This document shows, piece by piece, positions 4,547 to 20,190 of a DNA stretch of 36,343 nt; within the stretch, counting starts at the first letter, position 1, and every line of letters begins with the position of its first letter. The notes below the pieces were generated by a model. The model searched no databases, was not told where the DNA came from, and worked only from the letters and a program-made list of their open reading frames with translations. The stretch lies in NCBI GenBank assembly GCA_016215115.1, contig JACRLN010000013.1:1-36343 (forward strand), read 5' to 3'. The DNA is from Nitrospirota bacterium (GTDB taxonomy: Bacteria; Nitrospirota; Thermodesulfovibrionia; UBA6902). Position numbers and translations under genes: made by a program.

Positions 4547-4642
4547 GGGGGGTATGGGACTGGTGTCCCTCCTGGTCTGCAAAACCAGAGACAGGATGCG
4601 CAAAAGCGTTCTGGTGGGTTTGATTCCCACTGCCCCTCTCCA
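4547..4642 (+). tRNA. Selenocysteine-type tRNA with Cys anticodon GCA and discriminator U
   Basis: Folds as a 96-nt tRNA. The acceptor is 8 bp (4547-4554 with 4631-4638, G-U at pairs 2 and 7). The D-stem is 5 bp (4556-4560/4565-4569) plus a T-T mismatch, with the 4-nt loop TGGT. The anticodon stem is 5 bp (4572-4576/4584-4588) with loop CTGCAAA, anticodon GCA at 4579-4581. The variable stem is 8 bp (4592-4599/4606-4613) and the T-stem 5 bp (4614-4618/4626-4630). Discriminator is T4639, and CCA is encoded at 4640-4642. The 8+5 acceptor branch, tiny D-loop and long variable arm are hallmarks of bacterial tRNA-Sec, which normally has anticodon UCA and G at the discriminator. GCA plus U73 are instead the main cysteinyl-tRNA synthetase identity elements. 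The T-loop is TTTGATT, with U where C56 is normal. It precedes fdh and selD on the same strand. Whether it carries Ser/Sec or Cys is not decided by sequence. Confidence 0.9.
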
Positions 4643-4783: not shown

Positions 4784-5539
4784 ATGACAACAAAAAGTTT
4801 AACAAGAAGGGAATTGCTGACCGGCACAGGAAAGCTTGTTGTCGGGACAGCAGTTGTAGCTGGTGTTTCAGCAGGCATGAATATATTTTCCAACGCTGAG
4901 GGGTCGGTGCCCCAACAGTTGCCATGGCCATATGAAAAATTAGAACCGGAAGAAGTTGGGAAAATAGCCTACGACGGGTGGTATAAGGCATTCTGCTCTT
5001 ACGGTGTTGCAAGCGGAATACTAACATCTCTTCAAAAAAAAATAGGGGAACCTTATACACAACTGCCGGTCGAGGGTCTTAGGCTTGGTGAAGGCGGGCT
5101 TGTTGGCTGGGGCACCTTATGCGGCTCACTGCTCGGGGCAACGGTAGCAGTAGGCTTTATCGCACCTTACGATGTAGGGAAACAGATTATGAACGAAATG
5201 CTTCAGTGGTACAGTGATACAGAGCTTCCTATCTATAAGCCCTCAAATCCAAAGGCAACGGTTGCGGTACAAACCACAAGCAATTCGCCTCTTTGCCACC
5301 TTTCAGTCGGCAAATGGACCAAGGCTGCCAGCAAATCATTGGGAAGCCCCGAACGGAAAGACCGTTGTGCACGTGTTACGGCAGATGTTGCGATGAAAAC
5401 AGTCATGCTTTTGAATGACTGGAAAGATGGGAAGTTCAGGTCTGATCGCAAACTTCCCTCAGCGCTATATGGAATTACCGCCCAGCACAACTGCAATGAA
5501 TGCCATACTCATGAAATCCCAGAGGCGATCAAACAGTAG
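4784..5539 (+). CDS. Tat-exported split-Soret-cytochrome-like protein (C_GCAxxG_C_C family)
   Basis: The N-terminus TRRELLTGTGKLVVG is a twin-arginine signal followed by a hydrophobic stretch, so the protein is probably exported folded. The body matches the C_GCAxxG_C_C family to which split-Soret cytochrome c belongs: FCSYGVASG, then WGTLCGSLLGA, then single cysteines in SPLCHLS and DRCARV. A c-type heme site CNECH lies near the C-terminus. Length is 251 residues. The ATG follows AAGGAGG. It sits between the tRNA and the formate dehydrogenase gene, so electron transfer or a redox role with that enzyme is a reasonable inference. A stable hairpin separates the two genes. Confidence 0.82.
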   Translation: MTTKSLTRRELLTGTGKLVVGTAVVAGVSAGMNIFSNAEGSVPQQLPWPYEKLEPEEVGKIAYDGWYKAFCSYGVASGILTSLQKKIGEPYTQLPVEGLRLGEGGLVGWGTLCGSLLGATVAVGFIAPYDVGKQIMNEMLQWYSDTELPIYKPSNPKATVAVQTTSNSPLCHLSVGKWTKAASKSLGSPERKDRCARVTADVAMKTVMLLNDWKDGKFRSDRKLPSALYGITAQHNCNECHTHEIPEAIKQ

Positions 5540-5598: not shown

Positions 5599-8295
5599 AT
5601 GGTTACGCAAACTGATTTATTGAAAATCAAAATAAATGAAAAAAATATCGTATGTGAGAAAGGCAAGACCGTTCTCGAAGCAGCAAAGGACTCAGGAATC
5701 GATATCCCTACTCTCTGTCATGACGAAAGGCTGGAATCTTACGGCGGCTGCAGGTTATGCCTTGTTGAAATAAAAGGAATAAGCCGACCGCTTCCCTCAT
5801 GTACAACGCCTGCAATAGATGGAATGGAAGTTATTACAGAAAGCAATAAACTGACATCGCTGAGGAGAAGCATACTTTCACTTCTGCTTTCAAATCACCC
5901 GAATGACTGTATGCTTTGTGAAAAGACCGGCGACTGCCGACTGCAGGATCTTGTTTACAGATATAACGTAAAATGGGACCGGTTTGAGGGACAGGTATTG
6001 ACACTCCCGCTAAAGGAAGACAATCCGTTCATAACCTTTGATCCGAAGAAATGCATCTTATGCGGAAGGTGCATGAGAATCTGCAATGAGGTTGTCATGG
6101 CAGGGACGATAGATATGACAGGGAGGGGATTTAACACAACGCCCGGCACTGCATTCGGCAAGCCTCATTTATTGGATAACTGCGAGTTCTGCGGCCAGTG
6201 CATATCAACCTGTCCTGTCGGCGCGCTTGTAGCAAAGCCGTCAAAAGGGATGGGGAGAAGTTATGAGATGAAGAAGGTCAAGACCACCTGCACCTATTGC
6301 GGAACAGGATGCAATTTCTATCTGAACGTAAAAGACAACAAGGTTGTCAGGGTGACATCCGATTATGATTCTCCTGTGAATAAAGGAAATCTGTGTATCA
6401 AAGGAAGATTCGGATATGAATTTATTCATCACCCTGACCGTTTGACTACGCCCTTAATACGCAAAGGGAATAAATTTCATTCTGTCTCATGGGATGAGAC
6501 TCTGGATACCGTTGCAGACAGATTCAAAAAGCTTCTAAAAAAATACGGCCCGGATGCGGTCGGCGCTTTTTCATCAGCGCGCTGCAGTAACGAAGAAAAC
6601 TTTCTGCTTGCTAAATGGGTAAGGGCCTGTTTCGGCAGTAACAATGTAGACAACTGCGCCCGTGTATGTCACGCCCCAACAGTTGCGGGTCTTGCAAGAT
6701 CGTTCGGCGCAGGAGCCGCAACCAATTCTTTCGATCAAATAGCCGGAGCAGATACACTTTTCGTAATTGGTTCAAATACAACCGAAGGACATCCGATTGT
6801 TTCTCTGCATCTAAAAAAAGCCCTTCAAAACGGAGCAAGACTTATTGTTACTGATCCAAGAAGAATAGAATTGGTGAAATACTCCGACGTCTGGCTTAAT
6901 CTGCGTCCGGGAACCAATATCGCCCTGATTAACGGACTGATTCATATCATTCTCAAAGAGGGCTGGGAGAATAAGGATTTTATCTCTCAAAGAACAGAGG
7001 GATTTGGAGAATTAAAGAAAAAGGTCAGTGAGTACACACCTGAAAGAGTGGAGAGTATCACAGGCATTTCAAAAGATAAACTGTATAAAGCAGCACATCT
7101 GTATGCAAAGGCAGAAAACGCAATGATACTTTATGGACTTGGAGTTACCGAACATCTGACCGGAACAGAGAACGCAATTGCAATCGCTAATCTTGCGCTT
7201 GTCTGCGGACAGATTGGGAGGCCTTCAACGGGAATTATGGCGCTCAGAGGGCAGAACAATGTGCAGGGCGCATGTGATGTCGGGCCTCTTCCAAACGCAC
7301 TACCGGGTTATCACTATGTCACTGATGAAAAAAGCAGGGCCAAGTTCGAGAAGGCATGGAATATTAAAATCAGCAGTAAGCCTGGACTTAAGACTGTTGA
7401 GATGCTGGATGAAGCCCTGAAGGGGAATCTTAAAGGCATGTACTTACTCGGAATAGACCCAGCGCATACTGATCCGAATCTTCACCATATCCGGAAGGCA
7501 TTGCAGTCCCTCGAATTTCTGGTGGTGCAGGATATCTTTCCCACAGAGACTACGCAATTTGCCCATGTTATACTGCCCGGAGCAAGCTTTGCGGAAAAAG
7601 ATGGAACCTTCACAAACGGAGAGCGGAGAGTTCAGCGAATTCGAAAAGCCATTGAGCCTTTACCGGGAATGGCAGAGTGGCAGGTCATCTGTGAGCTGTC
7701 AACCCGGATGGGTTACCCCATGAAATATAATCATACGTCAGAGATCATGGATGAGATCGCAAGCCTTGCGCCTGCCTACGGCGGCATCAGCTACGAACGC
7801 CTTGAGAAAGAGAGTCTCCAATGGCCCTGTCCTGCCAAAGGACATTGCGGGACAACGACACTTTATAAAGAATCATTTTCAAGACCGGGAGGTCTTGCAG
7901 CATTTATCCCCCTTGACCACAAAGGTTCAGGGGAAAATCCTGACAGGGATTATCCTTTTATGCTTACAACGGGACGAAGGCGTGAGCATTACAACAACGG
8001 TTCGATGACAAGGAGGGTAAAAGGAATCATGGAACTCTGCCCTGAAGAACTTCTTGAGATCAATCCCAAAGATGCAAACCGTTTGAATATCAAGAATGGA
8101 GATATGGTTAAAGTTGCTTCAAAACGCGGAGAGATTCAGGTAAAGGTAAAGATAACAGACCGATCTCAGGAGGGGATGCTGTTTTTATCTTTCCACTATC
8201 AGGATACATTGACGAACTTCGTGACCTCGGAATTTAGAGATGAGATTGCAGGGACGCCAGAGTACAAGGCATGTGCTGTAAAAATTCTGAAATAA
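5599..8295 (+). CDS. fdhA: Formate dehydrogenase alpha subunit, catalytic Cys encoded by UGU
   Basis: Oxidises formate to CO2, or the reverse, at a Mo/W-bis-pyranopterin site. In order it shows a 2Fe-2S domain (Cys40, 51, 54, 68), a His-Cys cluster (His100, Cys104, 107, 113), two 4Fe-4S motifs (Cys152-162 and Cys195-205), the 4Fe-4S site of the Mo domain (Cys231, 234, 238 and the Cys of GNLCIKG), the molybdopterin oxidoreductase domain, and the C-terminal dinucleotide-binding domain. The 898-residue length fits the NuoG-like cytoplasmic type that works with NADH or ferredoxin partners; no partner genes adjoin it. The active-site segment NCARVCHAPTVAGL has Cys357, where E. coli FdhF has Sec. 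Its codon is TGT (6667-6669). The ATG at 5599 has AAAGGAG upstream. Mo supply genes (mod) lie nearby. Confidence 0.93.
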   Translation: MVTQTDLLKIKINEKNIVCEKGKTVLEAAKDSGIDIPTLCHDERLESYGGCRLCLVEIKGISRPLPSCTTPAIDGMEVITESNKLTSLRRSILSLLLSNHPNDCMLCEKTGDCRLQDLVYRYNVKWDRFEGQVLTLPLKEDNPFITFDPKKCILCGRCMRICNEVVMAGTIDMTGRGFNTTPGTAFGKPHLLDNCEFCGQCISTCPVGALVAKPSKGMGRSYEMKKVKTTCTYCGTGCNFYLNVKDNKVVRVTSDYDSPVNKGNLCIKGRFGYEFIHHPDRLTTPLIRKGNKFHSVSWDETLDTVADRFKKLLKKYGPDAVGAFSSARCSNEENFLLAKWVRACFGSNNVDNCARVCHAPTVAGLARSFGAGAATNSFDQIAGADTLFVIGSNTTEGHPIVSLHLKKALQNGARLIVTDPRRIELVKYSDVWLNLRPGTNIALINGLIHIILKEGWENKDFISQRTEGFGELKKKVSEYTPERVESITGISKDKLYKAAHLYAKAENAMILYGLGVTEHLTGTENAIAIANLALVCGQIGRPSTGIMALRGQNNVQGACDVGPLPNALPGYHYVTDEKSRAKFEKAWNIKISSKPGLKTVEMLDEALKGNLKGMYLLGIDPAHTDPNLHHIRKALQSLEFLVVQDIFPTETTQFAHVILPGASFAEKDGTFTNGERRVQRIRKAIEPLPGMAEWQVICELSTRMGYPMKYNHTSEIMDEIASLAPAYGGISYERLEKESLQWPCPAKGHCGTTTLYKESFSRPGGLAAFIPLDHKGSGENPDRDYPFMLTTGRRREHYNNGSMTRRVKGIMELCPEELLEINPKDANRLNIKNGDMVKVASKRGEIQVKVKITDRSQEGMLFLSFHYQDTLTNFVTSEFRDEIAGTPEYKACAVKILK
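6670..6698 (+). promoter_or_regulatory. SECIS-like hairpin after the catalytic UGU codon of fdhA
   Basis: TTGC (6683-6686) pairs with GCAA (6694-6697) around the loop GGGTCTT, which holds the GGUCU core of the E. coli fdhF SECIS loop. The loop begins 17 bases after the catalytic codon, the same distance as in E. coli fdhF. Part of the match is forced by the conserved protein sequence TVAGL, so function is inferred. Confidence 0.4.
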
Positions 8296-8334: not shown

Positions 8335-9381
8335 ATGGAGAAAGATAACCAGTCGCCCGAGATTAAATTGGCTGAAAAGGTAAAGGCGGCAGGCTGAGCG
8401 TCAAAGATAGGTCCGTTGGACCTGCAGGGCATACTTGAGATGCTGCCTCTTGTAAAAAATCCCAATCTGATTGTGGGATATGAGACAGGTGAGGATGCCG
8501 GTGTCTATAAATTATCAGAAGACATAGCGCTCATCCAGACTCTCGACTTCTTTACACCCATAGCGAATGACCCTTATATATTCGGGCAGATAGCAGCGGC
8601 GAATTCGCTGAGTGATGTTTACGCTATGGGAGGGAAACCACTTCTTGCAATGAATATTGTATGTTTCCCGATTAAGAAAATGCCAAAAGAGGTCTTGGGG
8701 AAAATACTCCGCGGGGCAGCGGATAAACTGAAGGAAGCGGAAACGCTTCTTGTAGGCGGACACAGCGTGGAGGATGAAGAAATAAAATATGGTCTTTCTG
8801 TCACAGGGATCGTACATCCAGCGAAAGTTATTCTAAATGCAGGGGCAAGATCAAGCGATTATCTGATTCTAACTAAGCCGCTCGGCACCGGGATAATTGC
8901 AACTGCCGTCAAAGGTGGGCGGGCGACAGTCGAAGCGGAAAAGAAAGCATACACGATAATGAGCGAGCTTAACAGGAAGGCGTCAGAAGCGATGCAAACA
9001 GCAGGCGCTCATGCCTGTACTGATATCACGGGCTTCGGACTTGTTGGACATGCTTATGAGATGGCAAAGGCGAGCAACGCGGGCATCACACTGTATGCTT
9101 CGAGAATCCCGATAATAGACGAGGCGGTTGAATATGCGGAAAGAGGCTTTATACCGGAAGGGGATTACAGAAACAAAGAGTATTGCAAAAAGGCAATCAA
9201 AATATCCCCTGAAATTTCTCCGGCTATAGCAGATATCCTGTTTGATGCGCAGACTTCCGGAGGCTTACTCATATCAATCAGTCAAGACAAGGCGGATGAA
9301 TTTCTAAAGTTATATCCAAAAGCAAATGTCGTCGGCGAAGTTACTGATAGCAACCGAGGAATAATTATTATCGAACCCTGA
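8335..9381 (+). CDS. selD: Selenide, water dikinase, itself a selenoprotein (in-frame UGA)
   Basis: Makes selenophosphate from selenide and ATP, the selenium donor for Sec-tRNA and other selenium modifications. Standard calling would start after 8397 because of TGA at 8395-8397. Read as Sec, the gene starts at ATG 8335, preceded by AGGAGG, and gives 348 residues, the family length. The N-terminal active-site segment is then AAG-Sec-ASKIGP (Sec21, Lys24), matching the [Sec/Cys]-x-x-K motif of SelD. Downstream motifs such as SDVYAMGG and LVGGHSVEDEE are also typical. A hairpin suited to SECIS function follows the TGA. It lies 39 bases after fdhA and 24 bases before yedF, so the three are probably co-transcribed. 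Confidence 0.94.
8395..8423 (+). promoter_or_regulatory. Sec codon UGA with bacterial SECIS hairpin in selD
   Basis: The UGA is at 8395-8397. AGGTCC (8409-8414) pairs perfectly with GGACCT (8418-8423) around the loop GTT. The loop starts 17 bases after the UGA and begins with G, both as expected for bacterial SECIS elements read by SelB. Confidence 0.8.
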
Positions 9382-9405
9382 AAACCTTATAACATGGAGG
9401 AGAAG

Positions 9406-10008
9406 ATGCTAATAGACGCAAGAGGTCTTGGATGCCCCAAACCTGTAATTATGGCTGAAGAGGAACTGATTAAAGCAGATGAAGGCATTGTTGAAATATT
9501 AGTCGATAATGAAGCATCGGTAGAAAACCTTACAAAGTTCGCAACAAAAAACGGGTTTTATTCAGAAACCTCAGAAGAAAACACTCACTGGTGTGTGAAG
9601 ATTGTAAAAGGTTATGGTTGTGAGGTGCAGAGCCATCACCCAAAAGAAAAGACTTCAGTGATAGAGGAGCAGGAAAAAGATATGCTGCTGATCATCAGTT
9701 CCGATGTCATCGGCAAAGAAGAAGAACTCGGCAGGATCTTAATGAAAGGTTTTTTCGAAACAATGAAAGTCACAAAAGAGATTCCCCATACAATGTTTTT
9801 TCTTAATGCAGGGGTGAAACTTACGACAGTAAGAGAGGAGATTATAAATTTACTGAAAGAGATTAGCTCAATGGGCGCAGAGATTTATTCATGCGGCACG
9901 TGTCTTAAATATTACAACCTTGAGTCAGAATTAAAAGTCGGTCACAGAGGGACAACAAACCACATTGTTGAGGGGTTTAAGGATTTTAGAAAAGTAGTGT
10001 GGATGTGA
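9406..10008 (+). CDS. yedF: Selenium metabolism protein YedF (TusA-like plus DsrE-like)
   Basis: The N-terminal ~75 residues are a TusA/SirA-like domain with the Cys-Pro signature GLGCPKP (Cys10). Residues ~85-200 form a DsrE-like domain with a CGTC motif. This pairing is the YedF family, regularly found next to selD and thought to handle reactive selenium or sulfur, although its exact reaction is not established. An ATG also exists at 9394, but GGAGGAG just before the ATG at 9406 and the usual start MLIDARGLGCP favour 9406 (200 residues). A decayed second copy lies at 12762-13040. Confidence 0.88.
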   Translation: MLIDARGLGCPKPVIMAEEELIKADEGIVEILVDNEASVENLTKFATKNGFYSETSEENTHWCVKIVKGYGCEVQSHHPKEKTSVIEEQEKDMLLIISSDVIGKEEELGRILMKGFFETMKVTKEIPHTMFFLNAGVKLTTVREEIINLLKEISSMGAEIYSCGTCLKYYNLESELKVGHRGTTNHIVEGFKDFRKVVWM

Positions 10009-10081: not shown

Positions 10082-10798
10082 TCAAAGCTTCTTTGTGTTG
10101 ACAAGCATCTGAACCTCAGTGCTTGACGGCTGATTCATCACCTCTTGCAGAGAGCCGACCTGAGCAACCTTTCCGTGTGAATACACAATAAGTTTATCTG
10201 CAAGAGAAGAGGCTTCATCAAAATCATGGGTTACGAGGATGACGGATATGGCAAACCGTTCCCTCACCTCCTGAAGGAAGCGCCGCATTTCCAGCCGGAG
10301 GGGATGATCAAGGGCTGAGAACGGCTCATCAAGCAGTAAAACCTCCGGCTGACGGATAAGCGCCCGCGCAAAGGCGACCCTCTGCTTCTGACCACCTGAT
10401 ATCTCGGAAAGATAGCGGTCCTCAAGTCCTTTAAGCTTAAATGCCTCGATCATTTCTTTGGCTCTTGAGACTTTTTCATCTTTTGGTATCTCAGGAGCGC
10501 CGAAGATGATGTTTCTAAGAACCGTCATGTGAGGGAATAAAGCAAGGTCCTGAAAGACATAGCCGAATGACCTAACCCACGGTGGGGTGTCTATGCCTGC
10601 CGAACTGTTAAAATAAGTTTTGCTGTTTGACCTGACAATGCCCTCATCAGGCCTAATCAGGCCTGCGATCATTTGCAAGGTCAATGACTTACCCGATCCG
10701 GAATATCCAAATAGGACTGCGAGTTCATCCTCAATCTCCCATGCCACATCAAGAGTAAAGCCGTTGACCTTCTTTTTCAGACTGACCGAAAGCCCCAT
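10082..10798 (-). CDS. modC: Molybdate ABC transporter, ATP-binding protein
   Basis: ATPase that drives molybdate import. Walker A is GYSGSGKS, the ABC signature is SGGQKQR and Walker B runs into LLLDEPFSALD. The protein is 238 residues, so it lacks the C-terminal molybdate-binding TOBE/Mop domain of the ~350-residue E. coli ModC. The ATG at 10798 overlaps the modB stop (TAATG arrangement), implying translational coupling. A longer frame to 10891 only reads back through modB. Last gene of modE-modA-modB-modC, it converges on yedF. Confidence 0.9.
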   Translation of the reverse strand: MGLSVSLKKKVNGFTLDVAWEIEDELAVLFGYSGSGKSLTLQMIAGLIRPDEGIVRSNSKTYFNSSAGIDTPPWVRSFGYVFQDLALFPHMTVLRNIIFGAPEIPKDEKVSRAKEMIEAFKLKGLEDRYLSEISGGQKQRVAFARALIRQPEVLLLDEPFSALDHPLRLEMRRFLQEVRERFAISVILVTHDFDEASSLADKLIVYSHGKVAQVGSLQEVMNQPSSTEVQMLVNTKKL

Positions 10799-11463
10799 TA
10801 TATACTCCGCTTCGTGTACATATTTGCAATATAGAGGAATAGGCCGGACATGATAGTAAGCAGGATAACCATTGTATGCGCTTGTGTCCATTCACCGCTG
10901 TTTGCAAGGCTGTAGATAGCAAGCGGCATGGTGTTTGTCTTGCCCGGTATATTGCCTGCAAGCATAAGAGTCGCCCCGAACTCTCCCATAGCCCGTGCAA
11001 AAGAAAGAACAGTGCCTGCAATAATGCCCTTTCTGGCAAGAGGCAAAATAACCCTGAGCGCTGTTTCAATCTCTCCGTGTCCCAGGGTATAAGCGGCATT
11101 GATAAGATTCCTATCCACTGATTCAATAGCAGCTCTGGTTGTCTTTACCATAAGCGGCAAAGCAACAACAAATGACGCAAGGGCGGCAGCATACCATGTA
11201 AACATGATTGTGAATCCTGTCCAGTCATATATCATTTTACCGATCAATCCATTTCTTCCGAATATAACAATAAGATAATACCCGGTAACCGTAGGCGGAA
11301 GAACGAGAGGAAGGGTAAAAATAATATCAACAAGCTCTTTGCCTTTAAAATTTTTCTGTGCGAGAAAGTAGGATACCGGCACACCGGTTATGATAATGAA
11401 GGCCGTAGCAACCAACGCAACCTGCAGTGAAAGTCTCGCTGAAAAAAGGATAGAATTATCCAA
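10798..11463 (-). CDS. modB: Molybdate ABC transporter, permease
   Basis: Inner-membrane channel subunit of 221 residues with about five to six hydrophobic segments. The ABC-contacting loop AYTLGHGEIETALRVILPLA contains the EAA-type glycine signature, and FARAMGEFGATLMLAGN is characteristic of ModB. Its stop codon overlaps the modC start, and modA ends 17 bases upstream. Confidence 0.92.
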   Translation of the reverse strand: MDNSILFSARLSLQVALVATAFIIITGVPVSYFLAQKNFKGKELVDIIFTLPLVLPPTVTGYYLIVIFGRNGLIGKMIYDWTGFTIMFTWYAAALASFVVALPLMVKTTRAAIESVDRNLINAAYTLGHGEIETALRVILPLARKGIIAGTVLSFARAMGEFGATLMLAGNIPGKTNTMPLAIYSLANSGEWTQAHTMVILLTIMSGLFLYIANMYTKRSI

Positions 11464-11480
11464 GTCCCTTCTCCATGTTA

Positions 11481-12254
11481 TTACTTCACTTCACCGGGAA
11501 GAACAAAACCATAATTTTTCATAATTGGCCTGCCTGTCGGTCCGTTTATAAAATCAGCAAATCCCTTTGCTTCTTTGGGATTGCGGCCATTTTTTATTAC
11601 AGCCATTGCTTGTTCAATTGGAGGATGAAGTTCTTCAGGAATAAGGGTATAGTTTGTATTTGAACCTATACTGACAGAGAGGGCGACAATTCCTGCATCC
11701 ACACTCCCGGTTTCAACATAGTCAAGGGCCTGGCGTATATTTTCAGCCAATACGAACTTATCTTTTAGCCTTTCCCATATGCCGATCTTCTCCATTGCAG
11801 CCTTAGCAGCCATTCCGTAAGGCGCATGAGCCGGATTGGCAATAGCGATTTTCTTAACTTCAGGCTTTAATAAATCCTGCAAAGAACTGAACTTCGCGTA
11901 TCTCTTTGGGGTGGCAAGAGTGATCCTTCCGACTGCGTAAAGCTTCTTGGTTTCCGGTATAATCAGCCCTTTCACTTCAAGTGCGTCAATGTAACTTTTG
12001 TTTGCAGCAGCAAAAAGATCAACCGGAGCGCCGCCTTCTATCTGCTGCGCCAGCAGGCCGGTGGAGCCAAAATTGAGTAACACCTTTACTCCGGTTTCCT
12101 TTTCATACATTTCCCCGATCTCCTTGAAGGCACGGCTTAAATCAGCGGCCGCTGATATGGTTATTTCCTTTGGTGCTTCTGCAAACGTCACAGATGAAAA
12201 TATTACCAAAATAAAAATCATACCCACTGAAATCCATTGCAATCTTCTTAACAT
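11481..12254 (-). CDS. modA: Molybdate-binding periplasmic protein
   Basis: Extracytoplasmic receptor that delivers molybdate or tungstate to ModB. Residues 1-25 form a signal peptide, with cleavage likely at TFA-EAP. The mature start ITISAAADLSRAFKEIG and the FGSTGLLAQQIEGGAPVDLFAAA segment with the oxyanion-binding serines are typical of ModA. The ATG follows GGGGAG. Molybdate versus tungstate preference cannot be judged from sequence. Confidence 0.92.
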   Translation of the reverse strand: MLRRLQWISVGMIFILVIFSSVTFAEAPKEITISAAADLSRAFKEIGEMYEKETGVKVLLNFGSTGLLAQQIEGGAPVDLFAAANKSYIDALEVKGLIIPETKKLYAVGRITLATPKRYAKFSSLQDLLKPEVKKIAIANPAHAPYGMAAKAAMEKIGIWERLKDKFVLAENIRQALDYVETGSVDAGIVALSVSIGSNTNYTLIPEELHPPIEQAMAVIKNGRNPKEAKGFADFINGPTGRPIMKNYGFVLPGEVK

Positions 12255-12258
12255 ATTG

Positions 12259-12672
12259 TTATCTCCCCTTGTTTTTTATTTTTCCTTGTTGTGTACTTTT
12301 CGACAGCATCAGCTTGTTTTCCTCACGCCTGAGGAAGTTTTGGAAATCCTCGTGAAATTCCCAGAAAAGTTTAATTGCCTTCTCTCCTTCATCAGTCAAA
12401 ATAGCGCCTCCGCCTCCGCTACCACCGGTCGCTGTTTCAACAAGCTGCCGACTGGATTGTTTATTCATCGAGTCCACAAGCTCCCAGGCATTTCGGTAAG
12501 ACATTTCCATTGACTTGGCAGCCTTTGTAATAGAGCCGCACTCACGGATTCTTTCGAGTAAGATAATTCTTCCATAACCCAAGAAGGTACCTTCTTTTCC
12601 ATCAATCCAAATACGTCCTCGAAACCCTGGCGATATTTTCCCTTGATCCGGTTGTTTAGGCTTTTTGTGCAT
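12259..12672 (-). CDS. modE: ModE-type HTH regulator lacking the molybdate-binding domain
   Basis: Winged-helix regulator of the ModE N-terminal family: GRIILLERIRECGSITKAAKSMEMSYRNAW covers the HTH, and the glycine run TATGGSGGGGAILTDEG is typical of this family. At 137 residues it lacks the C-terminal Mop repeats with which E. coli ModE senses molybdate, so either it senses differently or another factor does. I use the ATG at 12672; a TTG five codons upstream (12687) lies on the predicted -10 region. It is the first gene of the mod operon, with modA 4 bases after its stop. Confidence 0.85.
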   Translation of the reverse strand: MHKKPKQPDQGKISPGFRGRIWIDGKEGTFLGYGRIILLERIRECGSITKAAKSMEMSYRNAWELVDSMNKQSSRQLVETATGGSGGGGAILTDEGEKAIKLFWEFHEDFQNFLRREENKLMLSKSTQQGKIKNKGR

Positions 12673-12675
12673 GAG

Positions 12676-12708
12676 CGTAATATACAAAAAGGAATAACGT
12701 TAAGTCAA
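12676..12708 (-). promoter_or_regulatory. Promoter and possible ModE site of the mod operon
   Basis: On the minus strand TTGACT (12703-12708) and TATATT (12679-12684) are 18 bases apart. The segment 12676-12699 has an imperfect symmetry, CGTTATT near one end and ATTACG at the other, reminiscent of the E. coli ModE box and lying across the promoter. The transcript would have almost no leader before ATG 12672. Confidence 0.35.
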
Positions 12709-13151: not shown

Positions 13152-13568
13152 GTGAGCATTAAACGATTTGGGATATCTTTAGATTCTTCTCTTTTAGAGA
13201 ATTTTGACAGCCTCATAGCCAAAAAAGGTTATGCCAACAGAAGCGAGGCTATCAGGGACCTTATCAGAGACAGTCTTGTAAAAGAGGAGTGGGAGTATGG
13301 CAACAGGGAAACCGTAGGGGCCATCAGCATTGTTTACTCTCATGACAGAAGAGAACTAACGGACACCCTGACAGACCTGCAGCATCATTTCAGTAAATCC
13401 ATAGTTTCTTCACTGCATGTTCATCTTGATGCACATAACTGCCTTGAGGTCATTGTTGTTAAAGGAAAGGGAACAGATATAAAAAATATAGCTGACAGAC
13501 TGATAGGGACAAAAGGGGTGATGCACGGCAAACTTTCACTGACAACACTGGGTAAACATTTAAAATAA
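13152..13568 (+). CDS. nikR: Nickel-responsive regulator NikR
   Basis: Ribbon-helix-helix repressor with an ACT-like nickel-binding domain, 138 residues. [15 protein letters not shown] begins the DNA-binding domain. The nickel ligands are visible as His78 (or His79), His89, His91 and Cys97 in LQHHFS and [10 protein letters not shown]. The start is GTG at 13152, directly after the operator. It precedes an ECF nickel transporter on the same strand, which it most likely represses when nickel is plentiful. Confidence 0.93.
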
Positions 13569-13654
13569 TTTTTTTGATTTTATTGTAGCACTTTTTTTAT
13601 TTTGGTAGCACTATTATTCCGGGCAAGAAGGACAAGGAGAGAAAAGAGGCAGCT

Positions 13655-14695
13655 ATGCATATGGCAGATGCATTACTTTCACCGGCGGTAGGGACAACCT
13701 TTTGGGCAGGCTCGATGGGGATCATCGTGTACTGCGCAAAAAAGCTCAAAGAGAATATAGACGAAAGAATGATCCCGCTGATGGGCGTGCTCGGCGCCTT
13801 TATATTTGCCGCCCAGATGATAAATTTCACAATCCCGGCAACAGGCTCAAGCGGCCATATCGGCGGTGGCATGATCCTTGCCGCATTGCTGGGGCCATAT
13901 GCCGCCTTCATTGTTATCGCCTCGGTGCTGACAATACAGAGCCTGTTTTTTGCGGACGGCGGAATATTGGCCCTCGGATGTAATATATGGAATATGGGGG
14001 TGTATCCATGTTTCATTGCATATCCTCTTATTTACAGGACAATGGTGAAAACCGGAAGCGGCTCAAGGCGCATACTAATCGCTTCTATACTTAGCGTCAT
14101 CGCAGGACTTCAGTTAGGCGCATTCTCTGTTGTTCTGCAAACCATGCTTTCAGGCAGAAGCGAGCTGCCGTTCAGCACATTCGTCTATATGATGCTGCCG
14201 ATACATCTGGCGATAGGACTTGTCGAAGGGTTTATCACAGCAAGTGTGATTAATTTTGTAAAGTCCATGCGGCCTGAAATAATTGAGAGCATATCGCTTT
14301 CAAGATCACTTTCACAGGGAGTTTCAATCAAAAAGGTATTTACAGGTTTTCTGATTATGGCAGCGCTTACCGGCGGTGTGATGTCATGGTTTGCATCTTC
14401 ACATCCGGACGGTCTTGAATGGTCCATAGAAAAGATATACGGCAAACCCGAACTGCCGGAGCAGGAACACGGGATCGCTCCCGCTTTGAAACAGGTCCAG
14501 GACAAGACGGCGTTTCTGCCCGGCTATAATTTCAAACAGAGTGATGAAGCGTCAACAAAACTGAAGGGCGGGGAATCGTGGCCCGCTATAGGAGCCGGAA
14601 CATCTGTATCGGGCATAATTGGATCAATCATGGTGCTTGGCATAATACTGCTTCTGGGTGCAGGTATAAAAATTCTCAAAACAAGAAGAGCATAA
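13655..14695 (+). CDS. nikMN: ECF nickel/cobalt transporter, fused substrate-binding component NikMN
   Basis: The N-terminus MHMADALLSPAVG carries the Met-His pair that chelates the metal in CbiM/NikM proteins, followed by several membrane segments (residues 1 to ~210). The C-terminal part (~225-346) has two hydrophobic segments around SSHPDGLEWS, the PDGLE (NikN/CbiN-like) domain. Nickel rather than cobalt is favoured by the adjacent nikR. The ATG follows AAGGAGAG at some distance. It forms a unit with nikQ and nikO. Confidence 0.88.
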   Translation: MHMADALLSPAVGTTFWAGSMGIIVYCAKKLKENIDERMIPLMGVLGAFIFAAQMINFTIPATGSSGHIGGGMILAALLGPYAAFIVIASVLTIQSLFFADGGILALGCNIWNMGVYPCFIAYPLIYRTMVKTGSGSRRILIASILSVIAGLQLGAFSVVLQTMLSGRSELPFSTFVYMMLPIHLAIGLVEGFITASVINFVKSMRPEIIESISLSRSLSQGVSIKKVFTGFLIMAALTGGVMSWFASSHPDGLEWSIEKIYGKPELPEQEHGIAPALKQVQDKTAFLPGYNFKQSDEASTKLKGGESWPAIGAGTSVSGIIGSIMVLGIILLLGAGIKILKTRRA

Positions 14696-14742
14696 AACTG
14701 AATTTACTTATGAGTTCATAAGTAAAGATACATAAATTAGGC

Positions 14743-14820
14743 GTCATGCCCGAAGTTCTTAATCGGGCATCCAGTTCTTTAGCTGTCTGGATTCCCGCTC
14801 AACAGACTGCGGGAATGACA
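14743..14820. repeat. Dispersed palindromic repeat, family A (copy 2)
   Basis: Two linked palindromes: one folding on CATGCCCGA/TCGGGCAT, the other on ATTCCCGC/GCGGGAAT, ending AATGACA. It fills the gap between nikMN and nikQ. Confidence 0.85.
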
Positions 14821-14854
14821 AGCTATGTGGTTTTACTTATGACCGCTTTATTAT

Positions 14855-15661
14855 ATGCCGAATTTCGATAAAGAGTATTTCAACATTGGTTACCTTGATA
14901 CACTGTCATACAGGCAGACTTTTATTCACAGAATCAATCCGGGGATAAAGCTTGTTGTCACCCTGGTATTTATTCTTATAGTAGTTTCCTTCTCCAAGTA
15001 TGAGATTCACAGGTTGATGCCGTATTTTGCCTTTCCCGTTTTTCTCATATCTGCCGGAGAGATACCTACCGGGGTTATCCTGAAAAAAATTTTTATCGTC
15101 TCTCCATTTGTGCTGTTCGCCGGAATGTTTAATCCGATGCTCGATACGACTATTGTTTATACAATATCTGGCGTCCCTGTTTCCGGAGGATGGGTATCAT
15201 ATGTCTCAATAATCATCAAATTTATTCTTACCATAAGCTCTGCGCTCCTCCTGATCGCCACCACTTCATTCCCCGGAATATGTTCCGCGCTTGAGAAACT
15301 GCGTGTGCCGAAAGTTTTTGTAATGCAGTTACTCTTCATCTACAGGTATCTATTCGTACTTGCTGAAGAGGCGATGAGGATTGTAAGGGCAAGAAATATG
15401 AGGGCCTTCGGCAAACACGGCAGGGATATTAAAACCTTCATCAACATCATCGGGACCTTTCTTATACGGAGCATAGAACGTTCGGAAAGGATTTACCATG
15501 CAATCTGTTCAAGAGGCTTTGACGGACGGATAAGATTGTTGAGAGATATTAAATTTAAATTCACCGATATTATATTCGCTTTATTATCGGTTTCAGTATT
15601 CATCATTTTAAGGATGTATGATATTGCAGAACTGATTGGAGATGCTGTACTTAAATTTTGA
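14855..15661 (+). CDS. nikQ: ECF transporter transmembrane component (CbiQ/NikQ)
   Basis: Integral membrane T-component of 268 residues. IHRINPGIKL at the N-terminus is typical of CbiQ. Several hydrophobic segments follow, then the coupling-helix motifs around ARNMRAFG and ICSRGFDGRIR (A-R-G type) that contact the ATPase. No clear Shine-Dalgarno precedes the ATG, and a family A repeat separates it from nikMN. The nikO gene starts 8 bases after its stop. Confidence 0.9.
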   Translation: MPNFDKEYFNIGYLDTLSYRQTFIHRINPGIKLVVTLVFILIVVSFSKYEIHRLMPYFAFPVFLISAGEIPTGVILKKIFIVSPFVLFAGMFNPMLDTTIVYTISGVPVSGGWVSYVSIIIKFILTISSALLLIATTSFPGICSALEKLRVPKVFVMQLLFIYRYLFVLAEEAMRIVRARNMRAFGKHGRDIKTFINIIGTFLIRSIERSERIYHAICSRGFDGRIRLLRDIKFKFTDIIFALLSVSVFIILRMYDIAELIGDAVLKF

Positions 15662-15669
15662 ATTAAACC

Positions 15670-16404
15670 ATGAGCCACCACATTATAGAATTCAACAACG
15701 TTCACTTCACCTATCCTGACGGCACAGATGCATTAAAGGGCCTGGATTTCAGGATAACACACGGCGAATCAGTGGGCATTGTCGGCGCAAACGGGGCGGG
15801 GAAATCCACATTAATTTCTCATATGAATGGTTATCTTTTACCAGCAAAAGGGACGATTACTATCGGTGATCTGCAGTTGAACAAGTCCACAATCAATCAT
15901 GCGAGGAAAACCGTAGGTGTTGTATTTCAGAATCCTGATGATCAGCTTTTTATGCCGACTGTTTTTGATGATGTCGCATTCGGCCCTCTGAATCTCGGGA
16001 TGACAAGGGAAAGGGTAATTGAAAGAGTAAATGAAGCATTGACAACTGTCGGCTGCTTAAACCTTAAAGACAAACCCCCTCACCATCTCTCAATGGGACA
16101 GAAACGGGCAGTAACTATTGCAGCAGTTATTGCAATGCAGCCGGACATACTTGTGATGGATGAGCCCGCAGCAAGCCTTGATCCCAAGTCACGGAGGCAG
16201 CTTATAAATCTATTGAAAGAATTCAGGCATACAAAGATCATCGCCTCCCATGATCTTGATCTTATACGCGATGTCTGCACGAGGTGTCTCGTGATATCAG
16301 ACGGGGAGGTCACGGCTGACGGCCGTACCGATGAAATTCTTTTAAACGAACCGCTTCTTGAAGAAAACAATCTTGAACTGCCGCTTTCTTTACAGCATAA
16401 ATAA
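15670..16404 (+). CDS. nikO: ECF transporter ATPase (CbiO/NikO)
   Basis: ABC-type ATPase, 244 residues. Walker A is GANGAGKST, the Q-loop is VVFQNPDDQLFMPTV, the signature is LSMGQKRAVTIA and Walker B is LVMDEPAASLDP, with the switch His in IASHDLDLI. It powers the NikMN/NikQ complex. A single ATPase gene is present, as is usual for dedicated nickel or cobalt ECF systems. Confidence 0.92.
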   Translation: MSHHIIEFNNVHFTYPDGTDALKGLDFRITHGESVGIVGANGAGKSTLISHMNGYLLPAKGTITIGDLQLNKSTINHARKTVGVVFQNPDDQLFMPTVFDDVAFGPLNLGMTRERVIERVNEALTTVGCLNLKDKPPHHLSMGQKRAVTIAAVIAMQPDILVMDEPAASLDPKSRRQLINLLKEFRHTKIIASHDLDLIRDVCTRCLVISDGEVTADGRTDEILLNEPLLEENNLELPLSLQHK

Positions 16405-16766: not shown

Positions 16767-16833
16767 GGGCGATTCGGTGAATCGCCCTTTTCCGGGCGAC
16801 CCGCCGGGGGGCGACCCGCCGGGTCGCCCCTAC
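16763..16833. repeat. Palindromic repeat, family B, between convergent genes
   Basis: Starts GTAGGGGCGATTC and ends GTCGCCCCTAC, with internal GGCGACCCGCCGG copies. It covers the stop codons of both the small nickel-linked gene (+) and murU-amgK (-) and could serve as a two-way terminator. Confidence 0.8.
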
Positions 16834-18794
16834 AGTCTCATAACCAATTCGTACAACTCCGGATATTCGTCTTTTAAAAGTGATATATCATTTTTCAGCA
16901 GCCTCAATCCTTCCGGTACATATTTTGAAAAATATTTTTTCCCTTTGACCGAAGATAGGTAGCCGTATGCGCCAAGCGCCTGCATGTGCCTTTGAAGCCT
17001 GCATACAAGCAGTGTCTCCCTGAAATAGTCTGTATCAAATTTATCCTCAATCTGACTGATGTAATAATTCACAAGTTTCTCTCTCATATTGTCATGAAGG
17101 CGATAATACGGATCCCACAGTATTGAAGCTACATCATAGGCTGAAGGGCCTATCCTCGCTCCCTGATAATCAATTATTTTCAAGGTGCGATCTGCCATCA
17201 CCATAATATTTTGCGACTGGAAATCCCGATGAATTATGGTCTTTGGGAAAGAGTCTGCTTTAAATGCAAGACTATTTAATTCATCCTCCAATCCTGAAAT
17301 ATTGTCAGCTTTCATGTTTCTAATGCCATCTATATAGTTTTCGATAAAATAATCAGTCTCCCATCTGAAATATTCAAAATCGAAAATTCTGTCCTTAAGA
17401 AGCGGACATACCGCCACATGATCGGTTGCAGCAGTATGCAGCAGTACCAATGCGTTAATTACCCTCCTGTAGATATCTTCTATCTCTGTCTCCGAACGAG
17501 GACATTTTAACCAGTTATATAGAGAAGTATCTCCGGCGTCTTCAAATACAGCACTCTTCTCATCAAAATCAATTTCTAACAACTCAGGAACAGGGATAGA
17601 GTATTTCAGGAAAAACTTCGTATATTCTATCTGCCGCTTAAAATCAGGGTCGTCCATTTTACATTCCAACAGTACAGCAGACTTTCTGCCCCTTTTAATT
17701 CTGTAGTATTTTCTGTCCGAACCTCCTGCGCCAATCAGTTGTTTCCCGTTCTCTTCAATATTCAGTATCTCTGATTTGTTCAAATCAATTTTGAAATCAG
17801 CGCCTATGATGCAGTTTTCAAGTAGGGGCAATTCATGAATTGCCCCTACCCTGCTGCCCGGAAGCAAAATACAATTTCTGAGTAGGGGTAATTCATGAAT
17901 TACCCCTACATCTTCGAATGTAAAGCCCTCTTCAATTACAACATATCCCTGGTAATCAACATTCTCACACCCCTTCGTTGCCGGGTGGATGTACACGGTC
18001 TCTCCATCAGATTTCAGCGCATCAAAAACCGCACGGGCATACGTTTCCGGTGTTCCAATATCGCTCCAATAACAACCGTTCACATTAAACGTTCCTACCT
18101 TGCAACCGGAATCCACAGCCTTCAGCCACGCATCAACAACACTGGATGCGCCGGAAGGGAGAAACTGGAGAAATTCAGGTTCGTAAACGGCGATGCCTGT
18201 GAAGGCCGATCGTTGTCCCCCGGTAGGGGCGGGTTTGAAACCCGTCCCTACGTGTTTAAAAAATCCATTCTCATCAACAACGACATTATTGAACCTCGGA
18301 TAATCATGAACAGCAAGCGTTGCAAGATTGTTGGATTTGAGATGGCGCTCAAGAAGTTTTTCCAAACTTATATCAGAAAGTATATCTGAATTGTGCACCA
18401 GAAAAGTTCCTTCATTTAATAATCCCTCTGCATTTTTCAGCGCCCCTCCGGTGCCCAGGATCGTTCTTTCATGAAAAAGGATAATTTTATCTTCTGATAA
18501 TCCCCCTACATCCCCCTTTTCCAAAGGGGGACTTCCTAAATCCCCCACTTTAGCAAAGGGGGGTGAGGGGGGATTTTTGAAATATTGTTTTGCCCAGCCT
18601 TCAATAACCTCTTTCTTATGATGAACATTAATTGCAATTTTATTAACCGGCAGAGTTGATATTTTTTCGAATACATACTGCAAAACCGGTTTACCTAAAA
18701 CCGGCAGCAGAGGTTTTGGAATATGAAATGTAATCGGCTGAAGCCTCTCACCAATACCCGCAGCAGGAATAAAGATGTTGATTTTTTTGTTCAT
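16830..18794 (-). CDS. Fused sugar-1-phosphate uridylyltransferase / sugar kinase (MurU-AmgK-like)
   Basis: The N-terminal ~250 residues are a nucleotidyltransferase: FIPAAGIGERLQPITFHIPK with the G-x-G-x-R-L and PK motifs, and HNSDILSD with the metal aspartate. Residues ~265-345 look like a short left-handed beta-helix. Residues ~350-654 are an aminoglycoside-phosphotransferase-fold kinase with IIHRDFQSQN (catalytic Asp524) and IIDYQGAR. Separate proteins of these two kinds, MurU and AmgK, convert MurNAc to UDP-MurNAc in peptidoglycan recycling; here they are fused. The neighbouring NamZ gene fits this. Four repeat elements are translated in frame, at about residues 73-98, 182-191, 296-305 and 316-325. 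Substrate could also be GlcNAc or another sugar. Confidence 0.82.
   Translation of the reverse strand: MNKKINIFIPAAGIGERLQPITFHIPKPLLPVLGKPVLQYVFEKISTLPVNKIAINVHHKKEVIEGWAKQYFKNPPSPPFAKVGDLGSPPLEKGDVGGLSEDKIILFHERTILGTGGALKNAEGLLNEGTFLVHNSDILSDISLEKLLERHLKSNNLATLAVHDYPRFNNVVVDENGFFKHVGTGFKPAPTGGQRSAFTGIAVYEPEFLQFLPSGASSVVDAWLKAVDSGCKVGTFNVNGCYWSDIGTPETYARAVFDALKSDGETVYIHPATKGCENVDYQGYVVIEEGFTFEDVGVIHELPLLRNCILLPGSRVGAIHELPLLENCIIGADFKIDLNKSEILNIEENGKQLIGAGGSDRKYYRIKRGRKSAVLLECKMDDPDFKRQIEYTKFFLKYSIPVPELLEIDFDEKSAVFEDAGDTSLYNWLKCPRSETEIEDIYRRVINALVLLHTAATDHVAVCPLLKDRIFDFEYFRWETDYFIENYIDGIRNMKADNISGLEDELNSLAFKADSFPKTIIHRDFQSQNIMVMADRTLKIIDYQGARIGPSAYDVASILWDPYYRLHDNMREKLVNYYISQIEDKFDTDYFRETLLVCRLQRHMQALGAYGYLSSVKGKKYFSKYVPEGLRLLKNDISLLKDEYPELYELVMRL
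17822..17909. repeat. Two near-identical family B palindromes inside murU-amgK
   Basis: 28-base perfect palindromes at 17822-17849 and 17882-17909 (GTAGGGGCAATTC and its complement; the second has T for C in the arm). Each is read in frame as IHELPLL in the beta-helix region of the fused enzyme. Confidence 0.9.
18223..18251. repeat. Family B palindrome inside murU-amgK
   Basis: GTAGGGGCGGGTTTGAAACC followed by CGTCCCTAC, a 29-base near-perfect palindrome read in frame as VGTGFKPAPT. Confidence 0.85.
18501..18576. repeat. C/G-rich repeat cluster inside murU-amgK
   Basis: Runs of CCCCC and GGGGG with AAAGGGGG-type palindromes (TCCCCCTTTTCCAAAGGGGG and a second related unit). Read in frame as a proline/glycine-rich peptide of about 25 residues. 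Confidence 0.85.
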
Positions 18795-18812
18795 TATTGT
18801 TGTCTGTTAGCC

Positions 18813-18898
18813 GTCATTCCCGCAGTCCTTAAGCGGGAATCCAGAGTTCTTTGTTTCTTAAAGACACTGGATTCCCGATTACTACCTCGGGAATGACA
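18813..18898. repeat. Dispersed palindromic repeat, family A (copy 3)
   Basis: GTCATTCCCGCAGTCC, AAGCGGGAATCCAG, CTGGATTCCCG and CGGGAATGACA in order. It lies between namZ and murU-amgK. Confidence 0.85.
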
Positions 18899-18968
18899 AT
18901 AATCGACTATCTTCAAGAGATTCACTGTAAAGGGATTTACGACGCACTACACTATAAACAAACTCTAA

Positions 18969-20135
18969 TTAATAGATCAAATATTTCTTCCTGATATTTT
19001 TATTAAACTCCCGGCATTGCTCGTTCCACCATTCTTCCATATGCTCAAGTGACCTGCCGTTTTCTATGTCTTTCCTGAGCCTGTCCGTGCCTGCGAGGAT
19101 ATCTATCGGCATCTTCTCAATTTCATATTCGTAAGGAGGCTTCTTCCATTCAAAACAATCAGGATAAAGGTCATGTATTGTCTTGATAATAGCGACGCCT
19201 GTTTTAAAAGGTCTGAATTTATTTCTGTTAGTGACATGAATCTGCGCTCCTCTGCAGAGCTCGTCTGCATGCTTTTGAAAAGTCGGTTGAAAATAGATGG
19301 GTCTGAAGATAACGCCGGGTAATTTAAATGACTTCAGCTTCTCTATCAAAGCTTCAGCATCTATGAAAGGCGCTCCAAACATCTCAAATGGCCGTGTCGT
19401 GCCGCGTCCCTCGCTTACATTGGTGCCTTCCAGAAGACACATGCCGGGATATACAAGAGCGGTATCCAGCGTAGGCATATTGGGAGAAGGCAACACCCAC
19501 GGCAAACCTGTCTCACCAAACCACATCCTGCGATGCCATCCTTTCATAGGGATGACATGAAAATCCAGTGAAGAATAAAATTCATTTCTTAAATAACTGC
19601 CGATCTCAGCTATTGTCATACCATATCGTACAGACAAGGGACGTCGCCCGACAAAAGATGTAAAAAACATATCGAGCACTGTACCTTCTGTGATGATGCC
19701 GCCAAGAGGATTGGGCCTGTCAAGTATTACAACAGATTTCCCCAGCTCATTGCATGCCTGCATACAGAGTTCCATGGTCCATATAAATGTGTAATAGCGG
19801 GAGCCGGCATCCTGCATGTCTATTACCAGCACATCCAAGTCTTTCAACATTGAAGGCGCAGGCTTACGTGTACTGCTGTAGAGGCTGTAAACAGGCAGTC
19901 CGGTTTTCTTATCCCTGAACCCTTTCCATTCAATCATGTTGTCCTGAGTCTCTCCTCGGATTCCGTGCTGGGGACCAAAGAACGCTGTAAGTTTAAGCTT
20001 TCTGCTCTTGAAAAAACAGTCACCGGCATGCTCCAGTTTTCTGTCTACAGACGCAGGATGCACAACAAGCCCCACGCGTAAGCCTTTTAATTTTCGGGGC
20101 CAATTTTTCTCAAATATGTCGAGTCCGTTTTTCAT
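18969..20135 (-). CDS. namZ: Exo-beta-N-acetylmuramidase NamZ-like (DUF1343)
   Basis: Matches the DUF1343 family, of which NamZ removes terminal MurNAc from peptidoglycan fragments. Recognisable segments are GLRVGLVVHPASVD, FFGPQHGIRGETQDN, LPVYSLY, the VLVIDMQDAGSRYYT block, DRPNPLGG and LLEGTNVSEGRGTTRPFEMFGAPF. I choose the ATG at 20135 (388 residues); earlier ATGs at 20192 and 20210 overlap the divergent hemW start. No signal peptide is visible from any of these starts, which is unusual for an enzyme of the wall and suggests action on imported fragments. The adjacent kinase/uridylyltransferase would use its product, MurNAc. Confidence 0.87.
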   Translation of the reverse strand: MKNGLDIFEKNWPRKLKGLRVGLVVHPASVDRKLEHAGDCFFKSRKLKLTAFFGPQHGIRGETQDNMIEWKGFRDKKTGLPVYSLYSSTRKPAPSMLKDLDVLVIDMQDAGSRYYTFIWTMELCMQACNELGKSVVILDRPNPLGGIITEGTVLDMFFTSFVGRRPLSVRYGMTIAEIGSYLRNEFYSSLDFHVIPMKGWHRRMWFGETGLPWVLPSPNMPTLDTALVYPGMCLLEGTNVSEGRGTTRPFEMFGAPFIDAEALIEKLKSFKLPGVIFRPIYFQPTFQKHADELCRGAQIHVTNRNKFRPFKTGVAIIKTIHDLYPDCFEWKKPPYEYEIEKMPIDILAGTDRLRKDIENGRSLEHMEEWWNEQCREFNKNIRKKYLIY

Positions 20136-20190
20136 TTGTCTCTTAATGTAAGGTAATTCAGTAAAATCTTCAACTTTGCTAAAATGACTC

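Follow-up and report, generated by a model that had tools for sequence, protein, structure and literature searches.

A selC*-like tRNA-Cys of 8/5 form associated with selenium operons in Thermodesulfovibrionia

The window analysed here, that is, the whole stretch of 36,343 nucleotides of contig JACRLN010000013.1 from a Nitrospirota bacterium, encodes on its + strand a tRNA of 96 nt (positions 4547-4642) with the CCA end encoded in the gene. The tRNA stands first and is followed, all on the same strand, by the genes for a split-Soret protein, fdhA, selD and yedF. The features of the locus are as follows.

4547-4642, + strand, selC*-like tRNA-Cys (GCA) of 8/5 form with encoded CCA (Rfam, ARAGORN, fold, alignment)
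4547-4554, + strand, 5' strand of the acceptor stem, 8 bp with 4631-4638 (fold, covariation)
4556-4569, + strand, D-arm of 5 bp with 4-nt loop UGGU, tRNA-Sec-like (Rfam, fold, covariation)
4572-4588, + strand, anticodon arm, with loop CUGCAAA at 4577-4583 and anticodon GCA at 4579-4581 (sequence, alignment)
4592-4613, + strand, long variable arm of 8 bp (fold, covariation)
4614-4630, + strand, T-arm of 5 bp (GUGGG/CCCAC) with loop UUUGAUU, including U56 (fold, alignment)
4631-4642, + strand, 3' strand of the acceptor stem, discriminator U73 (4639) and CCA (4640-4642) (sequence)
4784-5539, + strand, split-Soret cytochrome c or C-GCAxxG-C-C-like protein, the next gene after the tRNA
5599-8295, + strand, fdhA (formate dehydrogenase alpha subunit; TIGR01591, 885 bits), with UGU at the Sec position (6667-6669)
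8335-9381, + strand, selD (selenide, water dikinase); a single in-frame UGA lies close to the N-terminus
9394-10008, + strand, yedF (selenium-metabolism sulfurtransferase-like; TIGR03527, 200.9 bits)

The stretch separating the tRNA from the split-Soret gene has no predicted intrinsic terminator. The fdh gene and the UGA-containing selD that the initial annotation had placed downstream of the tRNA are both present. Elsewhere in the window, molybdate-uptake-like genes on the - strand (10082-12687) adjoin the operon of the Mo-dependent fdhA; one product is a ModC-like ATPase by profile, and the others we take, from reading of the sequences, to be a permease, a binding protein and a ModE-like regulator. 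By the same kind of reading, positions 13152-16404 presumably encode a NikR-like protein and a CbiM/CbiQ/CbiO-like nickel or cobalt transporter. At positions 16830-20210, a fusion of nucleotidyltransferase and APH-type kinase lies next to a NamZ exo-muramidase, in an arrangement resembling cell-wall sugar recycling.

A covariance search put the locus above the cut-off of the Rfam tRNA-Sec model (RF01852; positions 4547-4638, 53.5 bits versus a cut-off of 47), and ARAGORN assigned it to tRNA-Cys (gca). The minimum-energy fold consists of an 8-bp acceptor stem, a 5-bp D-stem with a 4-nt loop, a 7-nt anticodon loop, an 8-bp variable arm and a 5-bp T-stem, the acceptor stem and the D-arm being joined by a one-base linker. 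Its energy is -47.8 kcal/mol (z = -4.4), and none of 200 shuffled sequences equalled it. The coordinates and anatomy given initially are therefore correct, as is the description of a Sec-type body with Cys identity elements, namely the GCA anticodon and U73. The anticodon arm core, GGUCUGCAAAACC, is identical to that of the ordinary tRNA-Cys of the same genome, and the T-stem is the same as in its own tRNA-Sec. Judged from its sequence, this tRNA is a chimera, with the anticodon core and U73 from tRNA-Cys, and the T-stem, acceptor, D-arm and variable arm from tRNA-Sec.

The 2.8-Mb assembly of the window's genome (G000) carries an ordinary tRNA-Cys at C20:38795 and an ordinary tRNA-Sec at C53:13359 (75.2 bits), the latter with the UCA anticodon that the initial annotation had suggested looking for, and with G73. 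Since both ordinary tRNAs are present, the tRNA at 4547-4642 is an addition and not a replacement, and its use as a stand-in for an absent tRNA-Cys or tRNA-Sec was ruled out. With a separate UCA/G73 tRNA-Sec in the genome, it is not the tRNA-Sec. One full-length CysRS, one SelA and one full-length SelB were detected in the genome; no full-length second CysRS or second SelB was found, and no selB* or cysS*. Among other carriers of the tRNA, one genome (G016) has two full-length CysRS genes (G016:C13 and G016:C25), neither of which lies near the selC*-like tRNA.

A covariance model built from five copies of the tRNA was used to search 230 genomes of Thermodesulfovibrionia, and relatives were detected in 74 of them; the carriers identified by name are Nitrospirota/Thermodesulfovibrionia MAGs. 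The spread is patchy: within the window's genus, the gene is carried by two of ten genomes (G000 and G006). In an alignment of 49 copies, all five helices covary and 97.4% of the cells are paired; shuffling lowers this value to 82%, and sliding to 48-58%. Two-sided changes were found at 25 of the 30 pairs, including every pair of the acceptor stem, which is paired to 98.8%; the T-stem is paired to 99.6% and has no bulge in this alignment. The anticodon loop CUGCAAA is present in 49/49 copies, and 47 copies have U73, CCA and G1-C72; the two exceptions come from Cloacimonadota, have G73 and differ in the acceptor stem. These 47 copies, together with 28 further ones (U73 in 28/28, GCA in 27 and GUA in one), make up the 75 close members, among which U73 is invariant and GCA is found in 74. 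No UCA anticodon was seen among the 49 aligned and 28 further copies. For reference, all eight tRNA-Sec examined have G73 and the T-stem GUGGG, and 15/15 ordinary tRNA-Cys have AGCGG. The 8/5 structure, as predicted from the alignment, is found throughout the family; in the copy at L191, a single base bulges from the T-stem.

The structure is thus conserved with compensatory changes in 74/230 genomes of the class, so the locus is not the dead gene that the initial annotation would have recognised from its absence in relatives. It is, on comparative sequence grounds, a real and conserved, non-canonical extra cysteine tRNA gene. The odd T-loop brought forward as additional support failed: U56 is private to the window copy, the other 48 aligned copies having C56, and it was discarded as a family feature.

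Several variants were noted on the way. L224 (G371:C88:5392-5486) is a family member with the same body and U73, of which the anticodon is GUA (Tyr codons), a natural anticodon variant. The Cloacimonadota tRNAs (L085:3374-3467 and L093:3132-3225) have a long variable arm, GCA, G73 and a mismatched 1-72 position (A-A or C-A); they may be sense-codon tRNA-Sec or some other unusual type. An 8/5 copy with GCA and U73 was found outside Nitrospirota, in a MAG labelled Actinomycetota (L089:6269-6361). Five copies (L127, L136, L225, L227 and L239) have very long variable arms, with a total length of 126-131 nt, and were missed by ARAGORN.

Cysteine tRNAs of the selC* kind were reportedly described as a general kind by Mukai et al. 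in 2017 (NAR). According to a review (PMC7609411), selC* tRNA-Cys has the anticodon GCA (or UCA), U73 and a tRNA-Sec-like body, with a modified 8/4 branch and an unpaired A51a in the T-stem as its most striking feature; this confirms the family of Cys tRNAs mimicking tRNA-Sec that the initial annotation had attributed to the Söll group. Since the same review already names Nitrospirae among the hosts, the kind itself is not new. The window tRNA shares with it the long acceptor stem, the long variable arm, U73 and GCA, and also the anaerobic hosts including Nitrospirae; selB* directly downstream is shared only by three relatives (L190, L191 and L128). It differs in having the 8/5 form with a full 5-bp T-stem, and 75/75 close members do not have the published 4-bp T-stem with the A51a bulge, in line with the initial suggestion that a U73-bearing 8/5 tRNA may be a type apart from the 8/4 tRNAs. 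It also differs in having G1-C72 instead of A1-U72, in a genome without selB* and cysS*, and in its setting within operons of yedF, selD, LysR and fdhA, which is absent from PMC7609411. As to other kinds, the tRNA resembles bacterial tRNA-Sec (RF01852) in the 8/5 branch, the D-arm, the long variable arm and the T-stem GUGGG, but has U73 instead of G73 and GCA instead of UCA, in a genome with a separate tRNA-Sec. With canonical tRNA-Cys it shares the loop CUGCAAA with its flanking pairs and U73, whereas canonical tRNA-Cys has a 7/5 branch, a short variable loop and a different T-stem. A tRNA-Sec with a sense anticodon is said to have been described from Aeromonas salmonicida by Mukai et al. in 2016; it resembles our tRNA in combining a Sec-like body with a Cys anticodon, and our tRNA differs from it by U73 and by the normal UCA tRNA-Sec alongside. 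Altogether, the sequence features place the tRNA at 4547-4642 beside selC* tRNA-Cys, in a form differing from the description in PMC7609411. The 8/5 form, the selenium-operon setting and the diverged Nitrospirota SelB* (see below) were not found described in the available literature; the 2017 original may hold 8/5 members.

The genes near the tRNA are largely linked to selenium. Among 49 loci, yedF lies within 7 kb of the tRNA in 20, often 15-300 bases downstream, and a LysR regulator of the selenium-metabolism family NF040786 (307.6 bits versus a cut-off of 250) is present in 16; split-Soret cytochrome family genes are found in 12, a double-cubane reductase with its activase in nine, and a transglutaminase-like protein in seven. 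Counted on the locus map, at least one such selenium-linked gene lies near the tRNA in 29 or more of the 47 close members. As the chance of a single-copy gene lying so near a random point was estimated to be well below 1%, this neighbourhood is far above chance. The tRNA is generally located at the operon head, behind the selenium LysR or ahead of yedF. YedF, LysR_Se and dehydratase-like genes have been tied to selenium by comparative genomics (PMC5322559), and in Methanococcus, LysR_Se/HrsM represses the Cys isoforms in the presence of selenium (PMC5322559, PMC11097638).

The fdhA gene of the window has UGU (Cys) at the Sec position, as does that of G006, where the same order of tRNA, UGU-fdhA and selD was found. 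The two closest paralogues within the window's genome, which are 71% and 45% identical, carry UGA instead, and so do nearly all fdhA homologues in the 16 genomes searched. The UGA copies carry a clear hairpin with the loop GGUCU and compensated changes in the stem (GUUGCC-GGUCU-GGCAAC and GUGGCC-GGUCU-GGCCAC). In the two UGU copies this SECIS-like hairpin is weakened, with pairing or loop gone; in G006, the loop GGUCU is changed to GGGCU. The former SECIS hairpin thus looks decayed in the Cys-type fdhA, and this counts against the main reading given below. By analogy, the window fdhA may be read as encoding the cysteine isoenzyme of an operon under selenium control, following the same logic as the HrsM-controlled Cys isoforms (PMC11097638). 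The pattern falls short of showing that the tRNA at 4547-4642 decodes this UGU. U73 and the degraded hairpin in both UGU copies led us to reject, as the main reading, an insertion of Sec at the UGU of the adjacent fdhA, and the insertion of Sec at Cys codons by this tRNA, put forward initially, found no support. After the Cys codons of the neighbouring genes (yedF, double-cubane reductase, activase, split-Soret and transglutaminase-like protein), there was no clear signal of a conserved hairpin. Conservation of synonymous sites in the same genes was weak and scattered, being best for the IFSCGTC codons of yedF (mean excess 0.118 versus 0.049), and was dropped as evidence for hairpin-marked Cys codons.

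SelB, full or partial and clearly above the EF-Tu-like background, was detected in 30 of the 32 carriers tested beyond the relatives set, and one further carrier has SelB as a split copy only; SelA was detected in 13 of 14 genomes tested. G231, one of the exceptions for SelB, is also without SelA, yet it carries UGA-containing fdhA genes and tRNA-Sec, so an assembly gap is likely. No tRNA-Sec was found in G110 and G134 (98-99% completeness), which have SelA, SelB and the selC*-like tRNA. We did not take them as a tie between SelB and this tRNA: both also carry UGA-containing fdhA, so an assembly gap is likelier, a divergent tRNA-Sec being the other possibility. A second SelB (selB*) is encoded straight after the tRNA in G298 (L190 and L191, within about 50 nt) and G296 (directly behind the tRNA in L128; L128/L198). 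The order of tRNA and selB* is the same as reported for Syntrophobacterales and Desulfobacterales, in which a second SelB follows selC* tRNA-Cys (PMC7609411). The three SelB* fall into a single clade (support 1.0). At columns conserved to at least 95% in ordinary SelB, the shared changes of the two full-length SelB* fall mostly within the C-terminal winged-helix, SECIS-binding domain; the SelB* of L191 is truncated after about 524 residues, before this domain. As far as sequence changes can indicate, the pattern fits a protein that has kept tRNA delivery and reads another RNA signal, or none.

On this basis we propose, with confidence only slightly above even, that the tRNA is a specialised second cysteine tRNA, charged by CysRS and carried by SelB or SelB* instead of EF-Tu, within a selenium-responsive Cys-for-Sec circuit. 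U73 and GCA are the main determinants for CysRS (PMC9976931), and G73 is held essential for tRNA-Sec (PMC5330540); charging by CysRS is therefore most likely. Between SerRS and CysRS, the sequence elements U73, G1-C72 and the GCA loop probably favour CysRS, through which the ordinary enzyme would attach cysteine. The low affinity of 8/5 tRNA-Sec for EF-Tu and its use by SelB are established. The 13-bp acceptor branch and the tRNA-Sec-like T-stem would likewise disfavour EF-Tu and suit SelB, which would bring the Cys-tRNA to the ribosome; transferred from the knowledge of tRNA-Sec, such delivery is on balance the probable one, and the dedicated second SelB directly behind the tRNA in three relatives may be taken in support. 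Expressed within selenium operons, the tRNA would support Cys versions of selenium-dependent redox enzymes at low selenium, and its neighbours make a role in selenium shortage plausible. The candidate codons for placement by SelB would be UGC/UGU with a hairpin, or a mispaired UGA. Several points speak against this reading: UGA is not matched by a GCA anticodon, and no special tRNA is required for an ordinary Cys codon; the single SelB of the window's genome, without selB*, also counts against it, as does the lack of a clear conserved hairpin after neighbouring Cys codons.

Instead, the tRNA could be an ordinary isoacceptor, charged by CysRS, delivered by EF-Tu and reading UGC/UGU anywhere, its Sec-like body being a relic of origin. 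The invariant Cys identity elements, the lack of a hairpin target after neighbouring Cys codons and the only SelB of the window's genome would agree with this reading, but the 8-bp acceptor, the tRNA-Sec T-stem and the selenium neighbourhood are retained across many families and a dedicated selB* stands behind the tRNA in three loci; we consider it unlikely. A regulatory or non-ribosomal tRNA, of which the charging or SelB binding reports selenium or cysteine, or which feeds an aminoacyl-tRNA-dependent enzyme of the operon, is quite unlikely: the usual place at the operon head and the one selB* copy without the C-terminal domain would suit it, but the perfectly conserved anticodon loop and CCA point to decoding, and no Cys-tRNA-dependent enzyme was recognised nearby. 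Highly improbable is a tRNA-Sec with a sense anticodon, charged by SerRS and converted by SelA for Sec insertion at UGC/UGU as in Aeromonas salmonicida; despite the Sec-like D-arm, variable arm and 8/5 branch and the presence of SelA and SelB, U73 in all close members stands against the G73 of functional tRNA-Sec generally, and the separate UCA tRNA-Sec serves the UGA genes, such as the two fdhA paralogues. Least credible of all is a decaying pseudogene in the window's genome alone within a living family, since, even though U56 disrupts the C56 that pairs with G19 and the gene is rare in the genus, all stems are intact with wobble pairs only, CCA is kept, and the G006 copy, ahead of the same fdhA and selD, is 95% identical.

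The selC* tRNAs with a GCA anticodon are not known to have a use. The selenium-operon setting and the three selB*-linked loci provide concrete genes and a selenium condition for probing one. If SelB carries the Cys-tRNA, this would be an exception to the delivery of all canonical amino acids by EF-Tu, and the cell would have a built-in choice between cysteine and selenocysteine in its redox enzymes. A further suggestion, possible but rather doubtful, is a dedicated cysteine channel beside EF-Tu, in which SelB, or SelB* with its own hairpin specificity, would lead cysteine to chosen codons in selenium-regulated mRNAs; if true, RNA structure together with the selenium status would programme the insertion of cysteine at certain sites.
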